Source: Thermalbibacter longus
Lineage (GTDB): Bacteria; Chloroflexota; Chloroflexia; Thermomicrobiales; Thermomicrobiaceae
Length of the DNA stretch: 64,000 bases
Direction of reading: 5' to 3'
NCBI RefSeq assembly: GCF_023806485.1
Contig: NZ_JAMSLR010000005.1
Coordinates: 1-64,000, forward strand
The notes below the pieces were generated by a model. The model had not been told where the DNA came from. It saw nothing but the letters and a program-made list of their open reading frames with translations, and did no database searches. The position numbers were made by a program, and so were the translations under genes. Positions 4,223-13,338 of the stretch are shown here, piece after piece. Every line of letters starts with the position of its first letter. The first letter of the stretch is position 1.

Positions 4223-4278
4223 AGCGCTAGCGTTTCACTGTGTGAGCGGTGCTCGCTGGCCCCGATCAGGGGAGTTCG

Positions 4279-5245
4279 ATGACCTCGCTCATCCAACCAG
4301 TCCCGCCTGGAATGCCGTCGTTTCTCGATATGCCGCGGCTCGAGCGGCTCGACCAGCTCGAGGCCGATGTCGCTCTCCTCGCCATACCCTACGGCGTGCC
4401 GTACGACATGGAGGGTTCCCGCTTCCCCTCAGCTCCCGCGCCCTGGGCCATCCGCGAGCAGTCGCTCTGGTTCCGCCGGTACGTGCGCCACTAGGACGTC
4501 GACTTCGGCGGTGATCTCTTCGCCGGGCGCGAAGTACGGATCGTCGACTGTGGCGAGGTGTCGATGGAGCCCGGTCAGTATCAGGAGAACATGCGTCGCG
4601 CGACCGAGGTGGTGCGGGCGATCCTCCGGCACGGCGCGATACCGATCATCCTCGGTGGGGATCATTCGGTACCGATCCCGGTGCTCCGGGCCTATGAGGC
4701 CTTCGGCCCGATCTTCGTTGTCCAGATCGATGCTCATCTCGACTGGCGCGACGAGGTAAACGGGGTGCGCGAAGGCCTGAGCAGCCCGATGCGGCGTGCC
4801 TCGGAGATGCCCTGGGTTTCCGGCATGGCTCAGATCGGCCTGCGTGGAGTGGGCAGTGGCCGGCAGCAGGAGTTCGACGATGCACGCGCCTACGGGAGCA
4901 TTCTGGTCACGGCCCGCGAGGTGCACGAGCACGGCGCCACGGCCGCGCTGCAGCGGATCCCGGCGGCCGAGCGCTACTACCGTAACCTTCGACGCTGACG
5001 GGCTCGACCCTGCGATCGCTCCCGGCGTCAATGCCCCGACCCCCGGCGGGCTGACCTACTACCAGGCGTTCGACCTGCTGAGAGGGTTAGCTGAGCGGGG
5101 CCGGATCGTGGGCTTCGACTTCGCCGAGGTCGCACCGGCTCGCGACCCGGCCGGGATCACGAGCCTGCATGCCGCCCGGCTGATCCTCAACCTGATCGGC
5201 GCGCTGGCGCATACCGGGCAGATCGGTCATGATCGGGCGGGATGA
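4279..5245 (+). pseudogene. Arginase/agmatinase-family ureohydrolase, interrupted by a nonsense codon and a frameshift
   Basis: Conceptually a 321-residue Mn2+-dependent ureohydrolase (agmatinase, guanidinobutyrase or related). The metal-binding motifs are intact: GGDHS, DAHLDWRD and FDADGLDPAIAPG, followed by PGGLTYYQ and FDFAEVAPARD. Two lesions break the frame. An in-frame TAG at 4492-4494 replaces what is normally an aromatic codon in RHxDVDFGGDLF. One extra C at 4981, after TACTAC, shifts the frame exactly before VTFDADGLDP; removing it restores the match. The start at ATG 4279 follows AGGGGAG. Because everything else is well kept, inactivation is recent or reflects sequencing error. Confidence 0.85.
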
Positions 5246-5413: not shown

Positions 5414-5776
5414 ATGCGTCATCGTGAGGGCCTGAGGCCGATCGAGCCGGCGACGCCCGTCATGTCGGGAAAGGTCTTCATCATCGGGACGGCCTTCCTG
5501 GTGACCGGTGCCACCTGGGCGCTGATGAGCTACTACCAGCTTGCGGGAGGGAGCCGGCCGATCGGAACGATCGATGTCCTGCTCGTGGTGATTCACCTCT
5601 TTGCCGGCCTGCTGGTCTACCGCCGGGTGCCGTACGCAATCCCGCTGGGCTTGGTGGTGGTCTTCCTCGGGCTAGCCGCTGCGCTCCTGAACGACTACCT
5701 ATTGCTTCTGGTTCCCGATGGTCTGACTGGCCTGCTCCTGATCCTCGGGCGTCACGCGGTGAGGCGCGCTGGGTAG
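5414..5776 (+). CDS. Small integral membrane protein of unknown function
   Basis: A 120-residue protein with four likely membrane helices: a first at about residues 18-42 (VFIIGTAFLVTGATWALMSY), then hydrophobic stretches near 55-70, 75-95 and 97-115. The start at ATG 5414 follows GGGAGGT at a good distance; an upstream in-frame extension lacks a ribosome site. No motif for a known transporter or enzyme is visible. It stands alone between the ureohydrolase remnant and the Lrp regulator. Confidence 0.6.
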   Translation: MRHREGLRPIEPATPVMSGKVFIIGTAFLVTGATWALMSYYQLAGGSRPIGTIDVLLVVIHLFAGLLVYRRVPYAIPLGLVVVFLGLAAALLNDYLLLLVPDGLTGLLLILGRHAVRRAG

Positions 5777-5992
5777 GCACGGCAGGTCTGTCGAAGAGAT
5801 GGAGTGCGGGAAAGGAGCTAGTTCACGTCGAGAATCTGCTAGAATCGGGCCGTTCGCATGGCAATGCGGGTGCCATTCCGGCAAACGCCGGCGATAATGC
5901 GTACGGAGCGCGGACAATGATTGGTCCGGGGCTGGTACAATGCCGTGCTTCGGGTGGTCAGAGGCGACCGTAGTGGTAGGAGCGATGGGGCT

Positions 5993-6580
5993 ATGGGCCG
6001 ACCGATCGACGAACTGGACCTAGCGATCATACGCCTGCTGCAGCAGGATAGCCGCATGCCGAGCGCGGAGATCGCCCGGCAGCTCGGGGTCGCTGAGCGG
6101 ACGGTGCGGGCCCGCATCAACCGCCTCGTTCAGGACGACGTGATCCGCCTCGTTGCTGTTCTCAACCCAGCGGCACTCGGCTACGAGGTCGTCGCTGACA
6201 TCTTTCTCGAGGTCGAGCCGACCCGGCTCGAAGAGGTCGCCGCTCGCCTGGTGGAGATGCAAGAGGTGAGTTACGTCGGGCTGACGACCGGAGAGCGTGA
6301 TATCAGCGTCCAGGTGTTCGTCCCGTCGATCGATGCGCTCTACCGGTTCATCACCGAGCGGCTGAGCACGATCCCCGGCGTCCTCGGCACCACGACCTAC
6401 ATCGTGCCGCGGGTGCTCAAGTGGCTGCACAACTGGTCACTCCCCGACGATCTCTTCCGAGAGGAGGCCCCACGACCGGCTAGGCGGCGGCGCGCTCCCG
6501 AGCGGTCGGGGGGTGGCAGTCAGCCGAATGGGAAGGGGCGGCGGAGCAGGCGAACGATGGAAGTGGGGGCCGAATCATGA
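5993..6580 (+). CDS. Lrp/AsnC-family transcriptional regulator
   Basis: A 195-residue regulator with an N-terminal winged helix-turn-helix (IDELDLAIIRLLQQDSR then AEIARQLGVAERTVRARI, residues about 4-45) and an AsnC-type ligand-binding beta-alpha-beta domain (residues about 60-150, ending TTTYIVPRVLKW). An Arg/Lys-rich tail of about 40 residues (PARRRRAPERSGGG onward) is longer than usual and may be disordered. The ATG at 5993 is preferred over an upstream in-frame start because the domain begins immediately after it. Its stop overlaps the start of the aminotransferase gene by four bases (ATGA), so it probably controls that gene in response to an amino acid-like ligand. Confidence 0.85.
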   Translation: MGRPIDELDLAIIRLLQQDSRMPSAEIARQLGVAERTVRARINRLVQDDVIRLVAVLNPAALGYEVVADIFLEVEPTRLEEVAARLVEMQEVSYVGLTTGERDISVQVFVPSIDALYRFITERLSTIPGVLGTTTYIVPRVLKWLHNWSLPDDLFREEAPRPARRRRAPERSGGGSQPNGKGRRSRRTMEVGAES

Positions 6581-7878
6581 CGACCGTGACCCGTAGCAGC
6601 GCGCATCAGGCCTGGCTGGCGCGGGCCCGCTCGGCGCTCGGCGGCGCGGTCACCAGCTTCAAGCCACCTGACGAGCTGGCGATCGTGATCTCGCACGGCC
6701 TCGGAAGCCGGGTGTACGATGTCGATGGCCGCGAATACATCGACTACGTGATGGGTTCCGGCCCGCTGATCATCGGCCATGCGCACCCGGCCGTCGTCGA
6801 GGCGGTCTCCCGCCAGGCGGCGCTCGGGTCGACCTTCTACTGGTTGACCGTCCCAGCGATCGAGCTGGCGGAGAAGATCATCGAGGCCGCCCCCTGCGCC
6901 GAGCAGGTGAAGTTCGTCTCCTCTGGCTCGGAGGCGACCTTCCACGCGCTCCGGATCGCCCGCGCCTACACTGGCAAGCAGAAGATCCTCAAGTTCGAGG
7001 GTGGCTTTCACGGCGTCAACGACTACGCCATGATGAGCGCGATGGCCTCGGAGCCGACGCCGTATCCACAGCCGATCCCCGACTCCGACGGCATCCCGCC
7101 CCAAATCGCCGAGACGGTGCTGGTGTCCCGGTGGAACGACGTGGAGCTGACCCGGCGGCTCATCGAAGAGCACGCGCACGAGCTGGCAGCCGTGATCTGC
7201 GAGCCACTGCAGCGCGCGCTCGTCCCGGCACCGGGTTTTCTGCAGGAGCTGCGCCGGCTGACCGAGCAGCACGGTGTGCTCCTGATCTTCGACGAGATCG
7301 TCACCGGCTTCCGGCTGGCGTACGGCGGCGCCCAGGAGCGCTACGGAGTCGTGCCGGACCTGGCCACGTACGGGAAGGCAGTCAGCGGTGGGTATCCCCT
7401 GGCGGCCATCGCCGGCAAGGCGGAGATCATGGCGGTGACCGATCCCTCCCGCCGCGGCCGGGGCGAGCCGGTCGCCCACCTGAGCGGCACGCTCAACGGT
7501 AACCCCGTGGCCGCCGCTGCCGGCCTGGCTACGCTCGAGGTGCTGCGCCAGCCCGGCGTCTACGAGCAACTCTACCGCACCACCGAGTTGCTCAAGTCGG
7601 GCCTGCGGGAGCTCGCGGCCGAGCGCGGCATCGCGGTGCAGGTGCTGGGCGAGGGCCCGCTCTTCCAGGTGCTCTTCGGGGAGCAGGAGCCGAAGGATCA
7701 TCCCGGCGTGCTAGCGACCGACCGAACGCGGGCCCGTCGCTTCGGGCTGGCCTGCCTGGAGCGCGGGCTGTTCGTGAACCCCGGCGAGAAGTTCTACGTC
7801 TCGCTGGCACACTCGACCGAGGACGTGGAGCGCACGCTCGACGTCTTCGAAGCCGCGCTGGACTCCGTCCGCGACTGA
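6577..7878 (+). CDS. Class III PLP-dependent aminotransferase (HemL-like)
   Basis: A 433-residue pyridoxal-phosphate enzyme of the ornithine/GABA/HemL class. FVSSGSEATFHALRIARAYTG binds the phosphate, LLIFDEIVTGFR holds the PLP-pyridine Asp (about D239), and YGKAVSGGYPLAAIAG carries the Schiff-base lysine (about K267). The overall layout resembles glutamate-1-semialdehyde aminomutase, but a stand-alone operon with an Lrp regulator fits a catabolic or omega-amino acid transaminase better than haem synthesis. It overlaps the regulator stop by four bases. The 270 bases downstream (7879-8148) show no recognisable gene. Confidence 0.85.
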   Translation: MTTVTRSSAHQAWLARARSALGGAVTSFKPPDELAIVISHGLGSRVYDVDGREYIDYVMGSGPLIIGHAHPAVVEAVSRQAALGSTFYWLTVPAIELAEKIIEAAPCAEQVKFVSSGSEATFHALRIARAYTGKQKILKFEGGFHGVNDYAMMSAMASEPTPYPQPIPDSDGIPPQIAETVLVSRWNDVELTRRLIEEHAHELAAVICEPLQRALVPAPGFLQELRRLTEQHGVLLIFDEIVTGFRLAYGGAQERYGVVPDLATYGKAVSGGYPLAAIAGKAEIMAVTDPSRRGRGEPVAHLSGTLNGNPVAAAAGLATLEVLRQPGVYEQLYRTTELLKSGLRELAAERGIAVQVLGEGPLFQVLFGEQEPKDHPGVLATDRTRARRFGLACLERGLFVNPGEKFYVSLAHSTEDVERTLDVFEAALDSVRD

Positions 7879-8148
7879 GGCGCTGGAGCTTCCGGTTCCG
7901 GCCTGGTCGAGTCCGCCCACGTGATGCTGGCCCGCCTGACGCGCGGTTTGGCCTCTCGCCGTACGACCCGGCGTCTGCCGTGACGCCCTTGGCGCTCGAA
8001 CGAGCTGCTGCCGGACGTGCGGCCTTCCATGTTCTCGGACGAGGCGCGCTTCGACAGCATCGTGCCGCACCACCGATCTGCCTCTTGCGAGACTCCCTGT
8101 CGTGACTTATGCTCCGAGACTGCCAAGCGATAGAGCGAGGTGGAGGTC

Positions 8149-11100
8149 GTGGCTGCGGCAGCGCCGTGGAAAGCGTCCTACATCGCGGCGGCATACGCTG
8201 CGGATGGTGTCGTCCGGGTGATCGACGACCGCAGAGAGAGCGACGAGCTGTTCGTCTTCCACTCGCCGCTCATGCGCCGCTTGATCGGCGTCCGGCGGGG
8301 CGTGACGTTTCCCGGTTCACGCGAGCGAGCGACCGCTGAAGAAGTCAGGTTCGCCGGGGCAGTGCTGACGAAGATCGGCCAGCGGGGATACCCCGCTCCC
8401 TGTTCCCTGCGCCTCGAACGCTGGCTCTGGGAGCGGGCGGCGGCGCTCGGGGTGGCAGAAGCGGCCGAGCGTCGGGAGGGCGGGGTCTTGACCTTCCGTG
8501 TCTACGAGCGCGCTGGGACCCTTCGGGCGCGGCTGCTCGCGAGCTTCTTTCCGGAGTTGCTCTTGCCGGAGGATGCTGCGGAGCAGGCTCTGGATCTCGT
8601 CCGTGGGTTCTGCACGGAAGCGGAGGCGTCGGTATTCGACGACCTCGTCGCCCTGCTTCCAGATAAGCGCCTCGGGCTGTTGCTGATCCCGCAGCGGCCG
8701 ATACGCACAATGGTTCCCAACACTGCAGAGATACCGGGGGATCTCGCCGGTGAGCGCGTGGTCGACTTCGCGGTCGAGGTGCCGTGTCTCCAGTCTACCG
8801 GCTCGGTTCCCTGGCACCGGCTCGTCGTCGAGGTCGACGATGGGTCGCACTCCGATGCGGCCCAGGCAACTTACGACGCAAGCCGCGATCAGGCGCTCGC
8901 GAGGTTCGGCTGGAAGACCTACCGGATCCGTCTGGCGGCGAACCCGTCGTCCGAGATCACCCGAATAGCGGACGAGCTAAGGGGGATGATCCCGGCCGAT
9001 ATCCTGCGTTCCGCATGGCAGATGAGAGACGAGTGCGATGCACCGATGCTCGACATGCATCGCAGGCTCGTGTGGCTGCCGATTCTCGAGGCGCAGCTTA
9101 CGACTGCTCTCGGGCAATGGCTGTTGCGGCGCGGCACGGCTTCGCTGCGCGTGTACGCCTCTCGGGAGGGCGAGGGAGTCGCGGTCATCTTGGAGGCCCT
9201 CGGCGAGCTCCTGGACAACCTGGAAGAGCTGTACCAGCTCCCGCCACTGGGGCGTCCCATGCTGGTCGAGCAGCCACAGGAGGCCGACCTCGCATACTTT
9301 CCGGTGCTCAACCACGAGGCGGTAACCCGTCACGCGCACGGTGCACCCGCAGTCCTGCTGCCCATACCGGTCTCCCCCGAGTATCACGATCCGCTCGAAC
9401 CGGTATTGCCGCGCCCCACGCCGCATCTCGACCCTGGTTCGGACGCATTCCGGCGCCCGCTCGAGAGGCTGCTGCAAATCGTGTTTCGATACGTCGCGTT
9501 TCGCCCCGGCCAGCTCCCGATCGTCCACCGGGCGCTTCGCTTGCAGCCGACGGTCGGGCTTCTGCCGACCGCTGCCGGGAAGTCTTTGTGTTATCAGCTT
9601 GCCGGCCTGCTCCAACCGGGGATGACGCTCGTCTGCGAGCCCTTGCGCTCGCTCATGGTCGATCAGGAAGACCACCTCGTGAGCTTCGGGATCCATCGCA
9701 GCGCCGCGATCGTCCCGCTGAGCGAGCAACCGCAGGGATACAATCCCCGAGGCAGGGACGAGATCCTGCGGGCGCTCGCCAACGGAGCGCTCCTGTTTTG
9801 TTTCATTTCTCCCGAGCGATTCCAGATTCCTGACTTCCGCCGGCAACTGCAAGACGCAGTTGCCCGGATCCCGGTCAACTACTTCGTCGTCGACGAGGCA
9901 CACTGCGTGAGCGAGTGGGGACATGATTTCCGGCCTGCCTACCTATCGTTGGGGCGAACCGTGCCCACGGTCTGTCGTGCCCTCTCCGGCTATGTTCCAC
10001 CCTTCGTCGCCTTGACCGGCACGGCGTCCGAAAACGTGCTCGTGGACGTGCTGCGCGAGCTCCAGATCGATGATCCCGGCTCGGTCGTGCGTCCTCAATC
10101 GTTCGACCGGCCTGAACTCGAGTTGAGCATTGTCCGTATCCGGACGGGGGAGCGCGTCGACCGGCTCGTGTCGGTTCTCCGGGAACTGCTGGGCTGGCGC
10201 CCTGGCCAGCCGTTCGATCCGCCGAGCGGCATCGTCTTCTGCTATTTCGTGGGAGGCAAGCTCGGTGTGGCTGAGTTCGAGCGCCAGCTTCGCGCGCGAT
10301 TGCCGGATCTCGTAGACTGGCTCGGCACGTATTCGGGCCGACGGCCCGACGATCGGCTGGCAGCCGATTGGGAGCAGGAGAAGATCCGGATCCAGCGGGC
10401 GTTCGTCGCGAACGAGATTCGGGTGCTCGTCGCGACCCACGCCTTCGGGATGGGTATCGATAAGCCGGATATCCGCTTCACCGTGCATACCATGCTGCCG
10501 CGTTCCCTCGAGGAGTTTTACCAGCAGGCCGGGCGTGCCGGCCGAGACGGGAAGCGGGCGTGCTGCATCATCCTGTTCTGCGATGACCATCCCAGACTCG
10601 CCGATGAGGCGCTCGACCCGGTCAGGACGCCCGCCGACCACTTGCCGCAGAAGCGAGCGATGACCCGCCCAGGCGCGCCGGCCGAGAGTGACGCCGTGCA
10701 GCATCTGTGGTTCGTTTCCCAGGCCTTTCGGGGCAAACAGTTCGATCAAGACACGATCGCCTTCGTGTGGCGCTCCCTCGCCCGTGCTCTCCCTCAGGAC
10801 ACCCGCCAGTTGCTGTCCATCCCCATCCGTTTCACCTTTCTCCTCGACCAAGGTGGGGCGGCTCATCCGGCCTTCGGGCACCAGATCCAGGGCCAGGAGG
10901 ACGCGGCGTCGCTCCTCGAGAAGGCACTGTACCGGCTGACGATGGCTGGGGCGATCGTCGACTACACGAAAGACTGGCAGCGGCAATGCTTCGTCGTCGA
11001 TCTGCGCCGCCGGACGACCGAGGACGTGATCGAGACGTTCCGCAGCTACCTCCTGCGCTATACGACGGAAGGCCAAGCGCGGCGGTACCTGAGCGACATC

Positions 11101-11775
11101 CCAGCAGGGTCGTACGAAGACGTGGTGGAGCATGTCGCTCGACGCATCGTCGCGTTCGTGTACGACCACATCGAGGCGCGCCGGCGCCTGGCGATGCGCC
11201 AGATGCTCGAAGTCGCTCGCGCGGCGACGGCGGTCGACGCCAGCGGAACGCAGAAGTTTCGCGATGAACTGCTGCGGTATCTGGAAGAATCCGAGTACTC
11301 GGATGCGGTGCGATCGCTCAGGGAAGACCTCCCCGATGACTGGCTCGCACTCTTCCGCCGGGCGAGCGCGCCCGACGCCCTCCCCAAGCTGGCTGGCGCA
11401 GTCCGGCGGCACCTCGAGGAACGGCCGTTCCACCCCGGGCTCCTGCTGCTCCGTGGCTTGGTCGAGGTCACTCGCAGCGGTGGCGGCGAATACATCGACA
11501 GCGCGTTCAGGATTCTGGCGCAGGATTACCCGCAGGTCGATCTCGATCGCCTCGCGTGGCAGCTCCTGCACGTCCTGGCAGAGGAAATCGGTTCGGGCAA
11601 TCCTGAGAGGCTCGATGCCGTCATCGAGATGCTCCTGCGGTGTCGCGAGACGCTCGGTTTCGCCCGGCTGTGTTATCAGCTCGCCCCTGAGCACGGATGG
11701 GCACATCTGCGTGCCGTGGTACGGCTCGCTGAAGGGGTGGCAGAGGCGATGAGAGGAGCCTCGGATGTTCGATGA
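8149..11775 (+). CDS. Fusion of a DUF559/Vsr-like nuclease domain to a RecQ-like DNA helicase
   Basis: A protein of about 1208 residues. Residues about 155-285 carry a PD-(D/E)XK-like core: [10 protein letters not shown] (about 203-212), [11 protein letters not shown] (about 226-236), then [21 protein letters not shown], as in DUF559 and Vsr nucleases. Residues about 445-830 form a superfamily 2 helicase of RecQ type: Walker [14 protein letters not shown] (about 470-482), DEAH (about 582), [25 protein letters not shown] and [10 protein letters not shown] (about 792). The usual RecQ zinc cysteines and HRDC domain are absent; about 380 other residues follow. GTG 8149 has GCGAGG eight bases upstream, better than GTG 8140. 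The next gene overlaps its end by 11 bases. Role in repair or anti-phage defence is inferred. Confidence 0.8.
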
Positions 11776-12205
11776 TACTGAGCAGCGGCGTGATCTGATT
11801 CTCCAGGCGGAGCAAGCTATCCGCGCTCTCGCCGGGGAGCTGGCCCGGACGGCGACCCTGGCGCAGGAGGCAGAAGCCGCACGCGCAGCGCTTCAGGGCG
11901 CGGCCGATGAGGTCCGGCACGTGCGATCCCAGGTCGAGGACGTGATCGCCGAGAATCGAGCGGTGCGCGAAGACCTCCTCACGGTCGCGAGACAAGCCGA
12001 GAGGGTTGTCGCCCAGGCGGAGCAGGCGCTCTCAGACGCCTCGACACGGCTCATCGCTGCGAGCGAGCAGCTCTTGCAGGCATCCAGCGAAGCGCGTGAT
12101 GCCACCGTTCGTGTCAGTGCTCAGCTCCGCCGCCTTCAACTGATGGTCGCGCTGAATCTCGCCCTCGCGCTCGCGCTGCTCGTCGCAGTGCTGATCGCGC
12201 TGTGA
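11765..12205 (+). CDS. Coiled-coil protein with a C-terminal membrane anchor
   Basis: A 146-residue protein. Residues about 5-115 are one long, Ala/Glu/Arg-rich coiled coil with heptad-like spacing, and the last 22 residues form a single membrane helix ([20 protein letters not shown]), giving a tail-anchored topology with the coiled coil in the cytoplasm. The gene begins inside the last codons of the nuclease-helicase gene, so the two are almost certainly made together. A structural or sensing partner that ties the helicase to the membrane is a reasonable inference; no enzymatic motif is present. Confidence 0.7.
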
Positions 12206-12333
12206 TGACGCTTGCTCACCGGTGCCGGCGAGCTGGTGGGAGCTCTCCCCTGCCTTGCCCGCCGTTCACCTGCCCGGTACGCTTGCCCTACGAACGCATC
12301 TGGTTTAACGACCGGACGGAACGGAGAGTTCTC

Positions 12334-13338
12334 ATGCGTGCAGCACGATTCTTCGGCCCAGGGGACTTCCGGCTCGTCGAGGTCGAGCGGCCGTCGCCCG
12401 GCCCGGGTGAGGTGCTGCTGCGGGTGCGGGCGGCCGGGCTGTGCCACTCGGATCTGCACATCATCCACGATGAGCTCGGAGGCTACCCGTTCCCCGTGCC
12501 GCTGACGCTCGGGCACGAGATCGCTGGCGAGGCGGTCGAGACGGGCCCCGGCGTCGATCCGTCGCTCATCGGGCGGCGCTTCGCCGTCTTCGGCCCGGCG
12601 GGATGCGGGCAGTGCGCGTTCTGCCGGGCAGGGCGGGATAACCTCTGCACCGAAAGCCTCGCGATCGGCCTGGCACGGGACGGCGGCTACGCCGAGTTCG
12701 TGGCCGTGCCGGCGCATGCGCTGGTGCCGGTGCCGGACGGGGTCGGCGACGCTGAGGCCGCGGTGGCCACCGACGCCGTGCTGACGTCCTTCCACGCGCT
12801 TGCGAACGTGGCGCGTGTCCGGCCTGGCGAGACCGTCGTCATCATCGGGGCCGGCGGGCTCGGCTTGAACGCGATCCAGGTCGCCAGAGCGATCGGCGCG
12901 TACGTGGTGGCGCTCGACGTCCAGCCACGCAAGCTGGAGCTGGCCAGGCAGTTCGGGGCCGACCTCGCGCTCGACAGCCGCAGCGTCGACCCGGAGAAGC
13001 CACTGCTCGACCGGAGGATCGACGTGGTCGGCGACTTCGTGGGCAACGACGCGACGAAGCTGCTAGCCCAGCGGCTGGTGAGCCGGGGTGGCCGCGTGGT
13101 GCTCGTGGGCCTCGGCAGCGTCGCCGGGTCGCTGCTCGGACTGCGGATCGTTGCGGACGAAGTCGCCATCCTGGGGAGCTTCTGGGGTACCCGCGCGGAG
13201 CTAGCAACCGTCCTCGACCTGATCGGCCGGGGGGTCCTGAGGCCACCGGTGGAGACGCACCCGCTGGACGAGATCCTTACCTGGATGCAGCGTCTGCGCG
13301 AGGGGGCGGTCGAGCACCGGGTCGCGCTGGTACCCTGA
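12334..13338 (+). CDS. Zinc-dependent alcohol dehydrogenase (MDR family)
   Basis: A 334-residue medium-chain dehydrogenase/reductase. Catalytic zinc ligands are seen in GLCHSDLH (about C37) and GHEIAGE (about H61-E62). A structural-zinc loop has four cysteines in CGQCAFCRAGRDNLC, and the NAD(P)-binding Rossmann motif is IIGAGGLGLNAIQVA. It oxidises alcohols or reduces aldehydes; the exact substrate is open. ATG 12334 follows GGAGAG; the longer frame back to 12202 is not supported. It stands alone, 128 bases after the coiled-coil gene and 86 bases before the Ddn-like gene. Confidence 0.88.
   Translation: MRAARFFGPGDFRLVEVERPSPGPGEVLLRVRAAGLCHSDLHIIHDELGGYPFPVPLTLGHEIAGEAVETGPGVDPSLIGRRFAVFGPAGCGQCAFCRAGRDNLCTESLAIGLARDGGYAEFVAVPAHALVPVPDGVGDAEAAVATDAVLTSFHALANVARVRPGETVVIIGAGGLGLNAIQVARAIGAYVVALDVQPRKLELARQFGADLALDSRSVDPEKPLLDRRIDVVGDFVGNDATKLLAQRLVSRGGRVVLVGLGSVAGSLLGLRIVADEVAILGSFWGTRAELATVLDLIGRGVLRPPVETHPLDEILTWMQRLREGAVEHRVALVP

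Follow-up and report, generated by a model that had tools for sequence, protein, structure and literature searches.

Membrane placement that targets entering DNA has been reported for the Zorya, Kiwa and SNIPE systems (PMC12904381). Coupling of a nuclease to a helicase has been shown for Hachiman HamAB, where HamB restrains the nuclease HamA (PMC12278908). For type III-B CoCoNuT systems, a fusion of a Vsr-like nuclease to a helicase has been predicted together with a separate coiled-coil protein (PMC11090510). Here we analyzed a gene pair in a stretch of 64,000 nucleotides from Thermalbibacter longus (positions 1 to 64,000 of contig NZ_JAMSLR010000005.1; referred to as the window, G+C content 69%), which encodes a large protein combining a putative nuclease with a RecQ-type helicase and, in an overlapping gene, a small coiled-coil protein with a predicted membrane helix. 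The two genes almost certainly form a conserved two-gene unit, and on balance we favor reading them as one undescribed system against invading DNA (phage, plasmid or transforming DNA), equipped with an oligomeric, usually membrane-tethering adaptor. No description of such a pair was found in the literature searched, with subscription papers and bioRxiv lying outside its coverage.

The pair and its predicted parts are located in the window as follows.

8140-11775, plus strand: gene for the nuclease-RecQ fusion protein (1211 amino acids), an open reading frame (ORF) with a GTG start at 8140, the stop at 11775 and an in-frame alternative GTG at 8149.
8761-8973, plus strand: putative DUF559/Vsr-like PD-(D/E)XK nuclease core, residues 208-278, VDF...VVEVDDGSH...YDASRD, from the Pfam models DUF559 and MTES_1575 and motif conservation.
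9463-10584, plus strand: RecQ-type superfamily 2 (SF2) helicase core, residues 442-815, from NCBIfam TIGR00614 and TIGR01389, RecQ matches in the PDB and motif positions.
10585-11772, plus strand: family-specific C-terminal region, about residues 816-1211, without a Pfam match and conserved within the nuclease-RecQ family only.
11765-12205, plus strand: partner gene for a coiled-coil protein of 146 amino acids with a C-terminal membrane helix, an ORF overlapping the helicase gene by 11 nt, with a downstream homologue in 11/11 loci.
11765-11899, plus strand: best conserved part of the partner, its N-terminal 45 residues or so, from the alignment and pairwise profile scores (consensus like LEAEQxIRxLAxELxRL).
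12140-12196, plus strand: predicted C-terminal transmembrane helix of the partner, residues 126-144, from hydropathy and found at the same position in 7/10 complete partners.

The helicase core of the large protein belongs to the RecQ family of SF2, as the NCBIfam model recQ_fam (TIGR00614) scored 251 bits over residues 444-814 at a cut-off of 219.8. The Pfam models DEAD (456-632) and Helicase_C (746-804) matched in the same region, which carries the helicase motifs PTAAGKS (motif I, 476-482, with the Walker lysine K481), DEAHC (585-589), LTGTAS (625) and AGRAGRD (797). The helicase motifs are conserved in the family. Matches in the PDB were confined to about residues 404-842, and the strong ones were all of the RecQ/BLM/WRN type. 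None of the Pfam models for the RecQ zinc-binding, RQC or HRDC domains matched the large protein at E<=1, in agreement with the first-pass annotation, a reading of the sequence alone, which had described a RecQ-type helicase devoid of zinc and HRDC domains. That annotation let the pair begin at 8149, the next in-frame GTG after 8140. Motif I of the window protein reads PTAAGKS in place of PTG-GKS. Forms of this motif with A for G are found in active Ski2/Hel308-like helicases, and the substitution is therefore not read as an inactivation.

The nuclease core, placed by the first-pass annotation at about residues 155-285, could be narrowed to about residues 208-278. Pfam DUF559 matched residues 226-264 at 21.0 bits, just above its gathering cut-off of 20.6, and the MTES_1575 restriction endonuclease model matched residues 208-278 at 20.7 bits, under its cut-off of 38.2. 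The homologous protein of Rhodothermus marinus reached 27.2 bits with DUF559. A motif of the form D...ExD...H...D..R, represented in the window protein by D209, E231, D233, H237, D246 and R249, is kept in all nine family members with a complete N-terminus. Lack of conservation of these residues had been named at the outset as a finding that would speak against the annotation. The AlphaFold2 model for the nuclease has a mean predicted local distance difference test score (pLDDT) of 36.7, and a beta-beta-alpha-beta order appears in it at residues 210-264 only, so that the model is too weak for testing the fold. The nuclease-RecQ protein of one Chloroflexota relative (G149) carries an additional N-terminal CxxC...C-x(n)-C stretch (L034:4146-4300), which is zinc-ribbon-like and absent from the others.

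The C-terminal region had been noted as some 380 unexplained residues. It stays without a Pfam match over its 380-400 amino acids and is nevertheless conserved, with 19-22 invariant columns across the relatives. Its AlphaFold2 model (mean pLDDT 51.9, locally about 80-86 in parts) contains a stretch resembling a winged helix-turn-helix, followed mostly by helices, and a Foldseek search with it returned no match at E<=1e-3. In view of the low pLDDT values and the empty Foldseek result, we claim no fold for either the nuclease or the C-terminal region. Hydrophobic segments comparable to the helix of the partner do not occur in any of the large proteins of the family (maximum 1.83).

The overlapping gene for a coiled-coil protein with one C-terminal membrane helix was correctly recognized at first pass. 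The window partner has a single strongly hydrophobic stretch at residues 126-144 (Kyte-Doolittle mean 2.89), which is followed by two residues. A terminal hydrophobic helix, with 1-6 residues after it, is found in seven of the ten complete RecQ-linked partners (the window, G025, G149, R. marinus, Haliscomenobacter hydrossis, G449 and Salinibacter ruber). The three others have lost, or never had, this helix; they share the C-terminus K-G-L-V/L-F (L033:6374-6970, L037:6946-7464 and L035:1204-1635), which is possibly a binding tail. As predicted from hydropathy, membrane tethering is thus a common property of the partners, not a universal one.

Searches with the large protein or its C-terminal region identified seven relatives in Chloroflexota (G025, G149, G153, G288, G322, G329 and G449; the public contigs of metagenome-assembled genomes for three of them are VXPS01000163.1, JAJDUF010000006.1 and JAJDZR010000216.1), and searches of plasmids added R. 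marinus (two strains, counted once), H. hydrossis and S. ruber M8. Together with the window, the family comprises 11 loci, ten of them beyond the window, in Chloroflexota, Rhodothermota and Bacteroidota. The relatives share roughly 25-38% identity with the window large protein. The N-termini of G322 and G449 are incomplete owing to contig ends, and the partner of G153 is cut by a contig end. Conservation of the pair in related genomes, which the first-pass annotation had left to be checked, was found throughout: the small coiled-coil gene is the next gene downstream on the same strand in 11/11 loci. In most loci the two genes overlap by 4-14 nt; three have a gap of 10-20 nt instead, and S. ruber has one of about 100 nt. 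Recurrence of the arrangement in ten other loci exceeds what chance would give.

Homology of the partners was assessed with leave-one-out profiles run against about 4,500 ORFs from the fetched loci. The set of 11 partners included the coiled-coil protein of a second R. marinus pair (see below) and was built before S. ruber was found. After setting aside the scars in two genus-mates, which are themselves family sequence, 10/11 partners were recovered as the best match of their held-out profile; the window partner was the top match at E 5e-6, and the partner of G149 was not recovered among these ORFs. The S. ruber partner, found later, matched the partner profile at E 1e-10. Across 400 Chloroflexota genomes, the partner profile matched solely in genomes with the helicase. 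These matches are mostly training sequences, and what counts is that the other genomes gave none. That the two genes are chance neighbors, a RecQ-like gene beside an unrelated coiled-coil gene, has a probability close to nil, since coiled coils do yield weak and unspecific profile matches but the linkage over three phyla and the held-out homology already contradict it.

The family is distinct from ordinary RecQ proteins. Among 17 other RecQ-core proteins of the same order, none carries the nuclease motif, and no partner was found at their loci by profile. In a tree of the helicase core, which carries a long-branch warning, the 11 family members are split from 18 controls by a branch with 100/100 support. 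Two sister pairs cross phylum boundaries and point to transfer between phyla: G322 from Chloroflexota groups with R. marinus, and H. hydrossis from Bacteroidota groups with S. ruber. Presence is sparse, with 6 clear cases in 400 genomes of the phylum and 3 in 61 of the order. The source genome has one full copy, its remaining matches in the genome scan being weak and restricted to the helicase core. Scanning the genomes with the single protein gave no loci, and a closer alignment of four rows gave only three loci already known. No relative of the large protein was encoded in the viral contigs and phage records searched. Two candidates were discarded: G093 (E 5.6e-4) is a false positive, as the site holds a LuxR-like ATPase only and no RecQ-type gene, and G015 (E 8.3e-4), a marginal RecQ protein, was set aside with its contig ending ahead of any partner position. 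A broken nuclease-RecQ copy, split over frames, was seen in G040 (L038, G040:C339, about 5503-9493), with ORFs for a helix-turn-helix protein and an IS5-like transposase close by.

The genome set searched contains three further species of the genus of the source genome. Two of them, G002 and G003, have kept the flanking genes, for an aminotransferase and an alcohol dehydrogenase, at their places and have lost the pair. Aligned to the window, the missing intervals are as follows.

8039-11959, no strand: interval missing in G002 (deletion scar), from flank alignments at 7867-8038 and 11960-12305 with 80-82% identity.
8085-12038, no strand: interval missing in G003 (second deletion), from flank alignments at 7865-8084 and 12039-12334 with 81-82% identity.

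Both genomes retain the 3' end of the partner gene. Because neither deletion contains the other, they must have separate origins, and two separate deletions leaving scars imply that the ancestor of the window genome, G002 and G003 had the pair. The ratio of nonsynonymous to synonymous substitution rates in the leftover coding stretches is about 0.31 and 0.40, compared to 0.06 for the adjacent aminotransferase. Judged by these values, the pair is constrained before its loss yet fast evolving, with the time since loss inflating the ratios.

On plasmids, the pair is found close to known defense genes. On the R. marinus plasmid pRMAR01, which has a type III CRISPR-Cas region, the distance between the pair (WP_012845333.1 and WP_012845332.1) and a CARF-HEPN gene is about 5 kb. 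On the H. hydrossis plasmid pHALHY02, the DISARM genes drmE and drmA and a DUF1998 gene of the drmB type come after the pair, and on the S. ruber plasmid pSR56 the pair itself comes after a type I restriction-modification cluster. In G025, an HSDR_N_2 protein is encoded directly upstream. Elsewhere in the window, an arginase/agmatinase-like gene (4249-5245) is split over three ORFs; since G002 and G003 each have a single ORF of 321 amino acids at this place, it is a frameshifted pseudogene or reflects sequencing errors.

A pair that travels together across three phyla and adjoins antiviral genes looks like an undescribed system intercepting invading DNA. In such a system, the RecQ motor of the large protein would bind and unwind foreign or abnormal DNA, and the N-terminal Vsr-like nuclease would cut this DNA. 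The coiled-coil protein would serve as an obligate partner, which oligomerizes and binds the large protein, probably via the family-specific C-terminal region. In most members, the partner would also tie this complex to the inner membrane, the place of DNA entry. A physical complex of the two proteins is very likely, and an anti-invader function of the pair is likely. For those members that possess the helix, it is reasonably probable that membrane placement is functional. The first-pass annotation had proposed a membrane-tethered nuclease-helicase suited to the interception of incoming DNA. The interception part is favored by the defense neighbors on three plasmids, the sporadic distribution and the independent deletions, and the association of the proteins and the nuclease activity are what we infer; the tether held for most partners and failed for three.

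Several points weigh against this interpretation. The AlphaFold models are too poor to confirm the fold of the nuclease or of the C-terminal region. The membrane helix is absent from 3/10 complete partners (G288, G329 and G322, all Chloroflexota), so that not every member can depend on tethering. Most chromosomal Chloroflexota copies, including that of the window, sit among housekeeping genes and outside defense islands. Finally, the argument from defense neighbors rests on three plasmid-bearing species, which is a small sample.

Among the other explanations, the coiled-coil protein itself might be the effector, with the RecQ-nuclease sensing phage DNA or DNA damage and freeing the tail-anchored protein to disrupt the membrane in abortive infection. 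A single C-terminal membrane helix on an oligomerizing coiled coil in 7/10 partners, as well as the defense-gene neighbors, would fit such a role. We consider it unlikely, however, since the membrane helix is missing from three partners, conservation within the partner is highest at the N-terminus and not in the helix, and the fully conserved nuclease motif already provides the large protein with a cutting module. There is also a small probability that the pair serves the host as a helicase-nuclease for DNA repair, recombination or natural transformation, provided with a membrane adaptor. The housekeeping surroundings of most Chloroflexota chromosomal copies, and the fact that RecQ cores are classical repair motors, would agree with this, whereas the rare and scattered distribution, the cross-phylum sister pairs, the two separate deletions in genus-mates and the plasmid copies beside CRISPR, DISARM and restriction-modification genes argue against it. 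A slim chance remains for the small protein acting as a restraint or antitoxin, which would hold a toxic helicase-nuclease in an inactive state as long as no DNA is sensed, following the precedent of Hachiman with a nuclease restrained by its partner (PMC12278908). Strict co-occurrence and translational overlap are compatible with such a role, but many antitoxin genes lie ahead of their toxin gene and the partner gene here is always the second of the two, and restraint alone leaves the membrane helix without a reason.

A second pair is present on pRMAR01 (L039:9985-13468, minus strand), adjoining the RecQ pair and convergent to it. It consists of the following genes.

L039:10505-13468, minus strand: superfamily 1 (SF1)/UvrD-like ATPase, unrelated to the RecQ motor.
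L039:9985-10539, minus strand: coiled-coil protein with a terminal membrane helix, matching the partner profile at E 6e-9.

No PADLOC model matched the SF1/UvrD-like ATPase. The RecQ-type and SF1 large proteins of R. marinus have about 80 C-terminal residues in common (BLAST E 2e-5 in a small set; profile 4e-5 from a single sequence). The homologous coiled-coil proteins and the common C-terminal segment suggest that the adaptor can serve different motors. Accordingly, the coiled-coil, usually tail-anchored protein might be a general adaptor linking a variety of DNA motors to the membrane, an idea we put forward tentatively, with thin evidence from one organism. A homologue of the R. marinus SF1 ATPase adjoins a DUF1156-DUF499-AlkB cluster on a plasmid of Picosynechococcus sp. 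PCC 7117 (L089); a coiled-coil partner gene was not found downstream of it. If true, the adaptor idea would establish membrane-tethered motor-nuclease defenses as a modular class with swappable engines. If the favored reading is right, the pair would represent a two-gene, plasmid-borne system and extend by a simple example the short list of defenses believed to act at the site of DNA passage through the membrane. As the anchor is present in some natural variants and absent from others, the role of membrane placement could be tested directly.

Compared with described systems, the RecQ motor, the Vsr-like nuclease and the coiled-coil membrane tether are each familiar, and it is their combination for which no description was found. 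By the comparisons below, the pair could be assigned neither to DpdF, PsyrTA, Hachiman or CoCoNuT nor to the family of Zorya, Kiwa or SNIPE. The helicase core resembles that of cellular RecQ, which provides the best PDB and NCBIfam matches. Unlike cellular RecQ, the window protein has no zinc, RQC or HRDC match, has an additional nuclease and C-terminal region, and falls in a clade distinct from the other RecQ-core proteins of the order; the score with the cellular RecQ equivalog TIGR01389 (261.5 bits) is far below the cut-off of 640.2. A RecQ-like core is also present in DpdF of the Dpd 7-deazaguanine system, the best PADLOC match of the window protein. This match is confined to the helicase core, NCBIfam DpdF scored 164 bits against a cut-off of 550, and none of the Dpd genes (DpdA-DpdC and others) was seen among the adjacent genes examined, the flanks not having been scanned gene by gene. 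PsyrTA similarly is a two-gene system with a RecQ-like helicase. Its partner is a phosphoribosyltransferase-type antitoxin, whereas the window partner is a coiled coil, and PADLOC PsyrT covers the core only.

With Hachiman, the pair shares a two-gene architecture of helicase and nuclease and an SF2 motor. HamB is, however, Ski2-like and HamA (DUF1837) a separate protein, whereas the window pair has its nuclease in one chain with a RecQ core and a coiled coil as its second subunit, and neither protein gave a DUF1837/HamA match in Pfam or PADLOC. CnuH and CnuA of CoCoNuT come close: there, too, the helicase is predicted to carry a fused Vsr-like nuclease, and a coiled-coil protein is encoded separately. 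CnuH, in contrast, is an SF1 UPF1-like helicase that works with the McrB-type GTPase CnuB and with CnuC (PMC11090510); the window core is an SF2 RecQ, and no McrB-like neighbor was present among the adjacent genes examined, nor was CnuB or CnuC seen close to the family loci, which sets the pair apart from CoCoNuT and McrBC. The placing of a DNA-acting effector at the membrane through a membrane protein or membrane segment, reported for Zorya, Kiwa and SNIPE, is predicted for the window pair as well, and the two-gene logic is that of Kiwa. The window pair differs from them in having no ZorA/B motor, KwaA or DUF4041, in having a tail-anchored coiled coil as its second protein, with three family members devoid of the anchor, and in possessing a RecQ motor fused to a Vsr-like nuclease.

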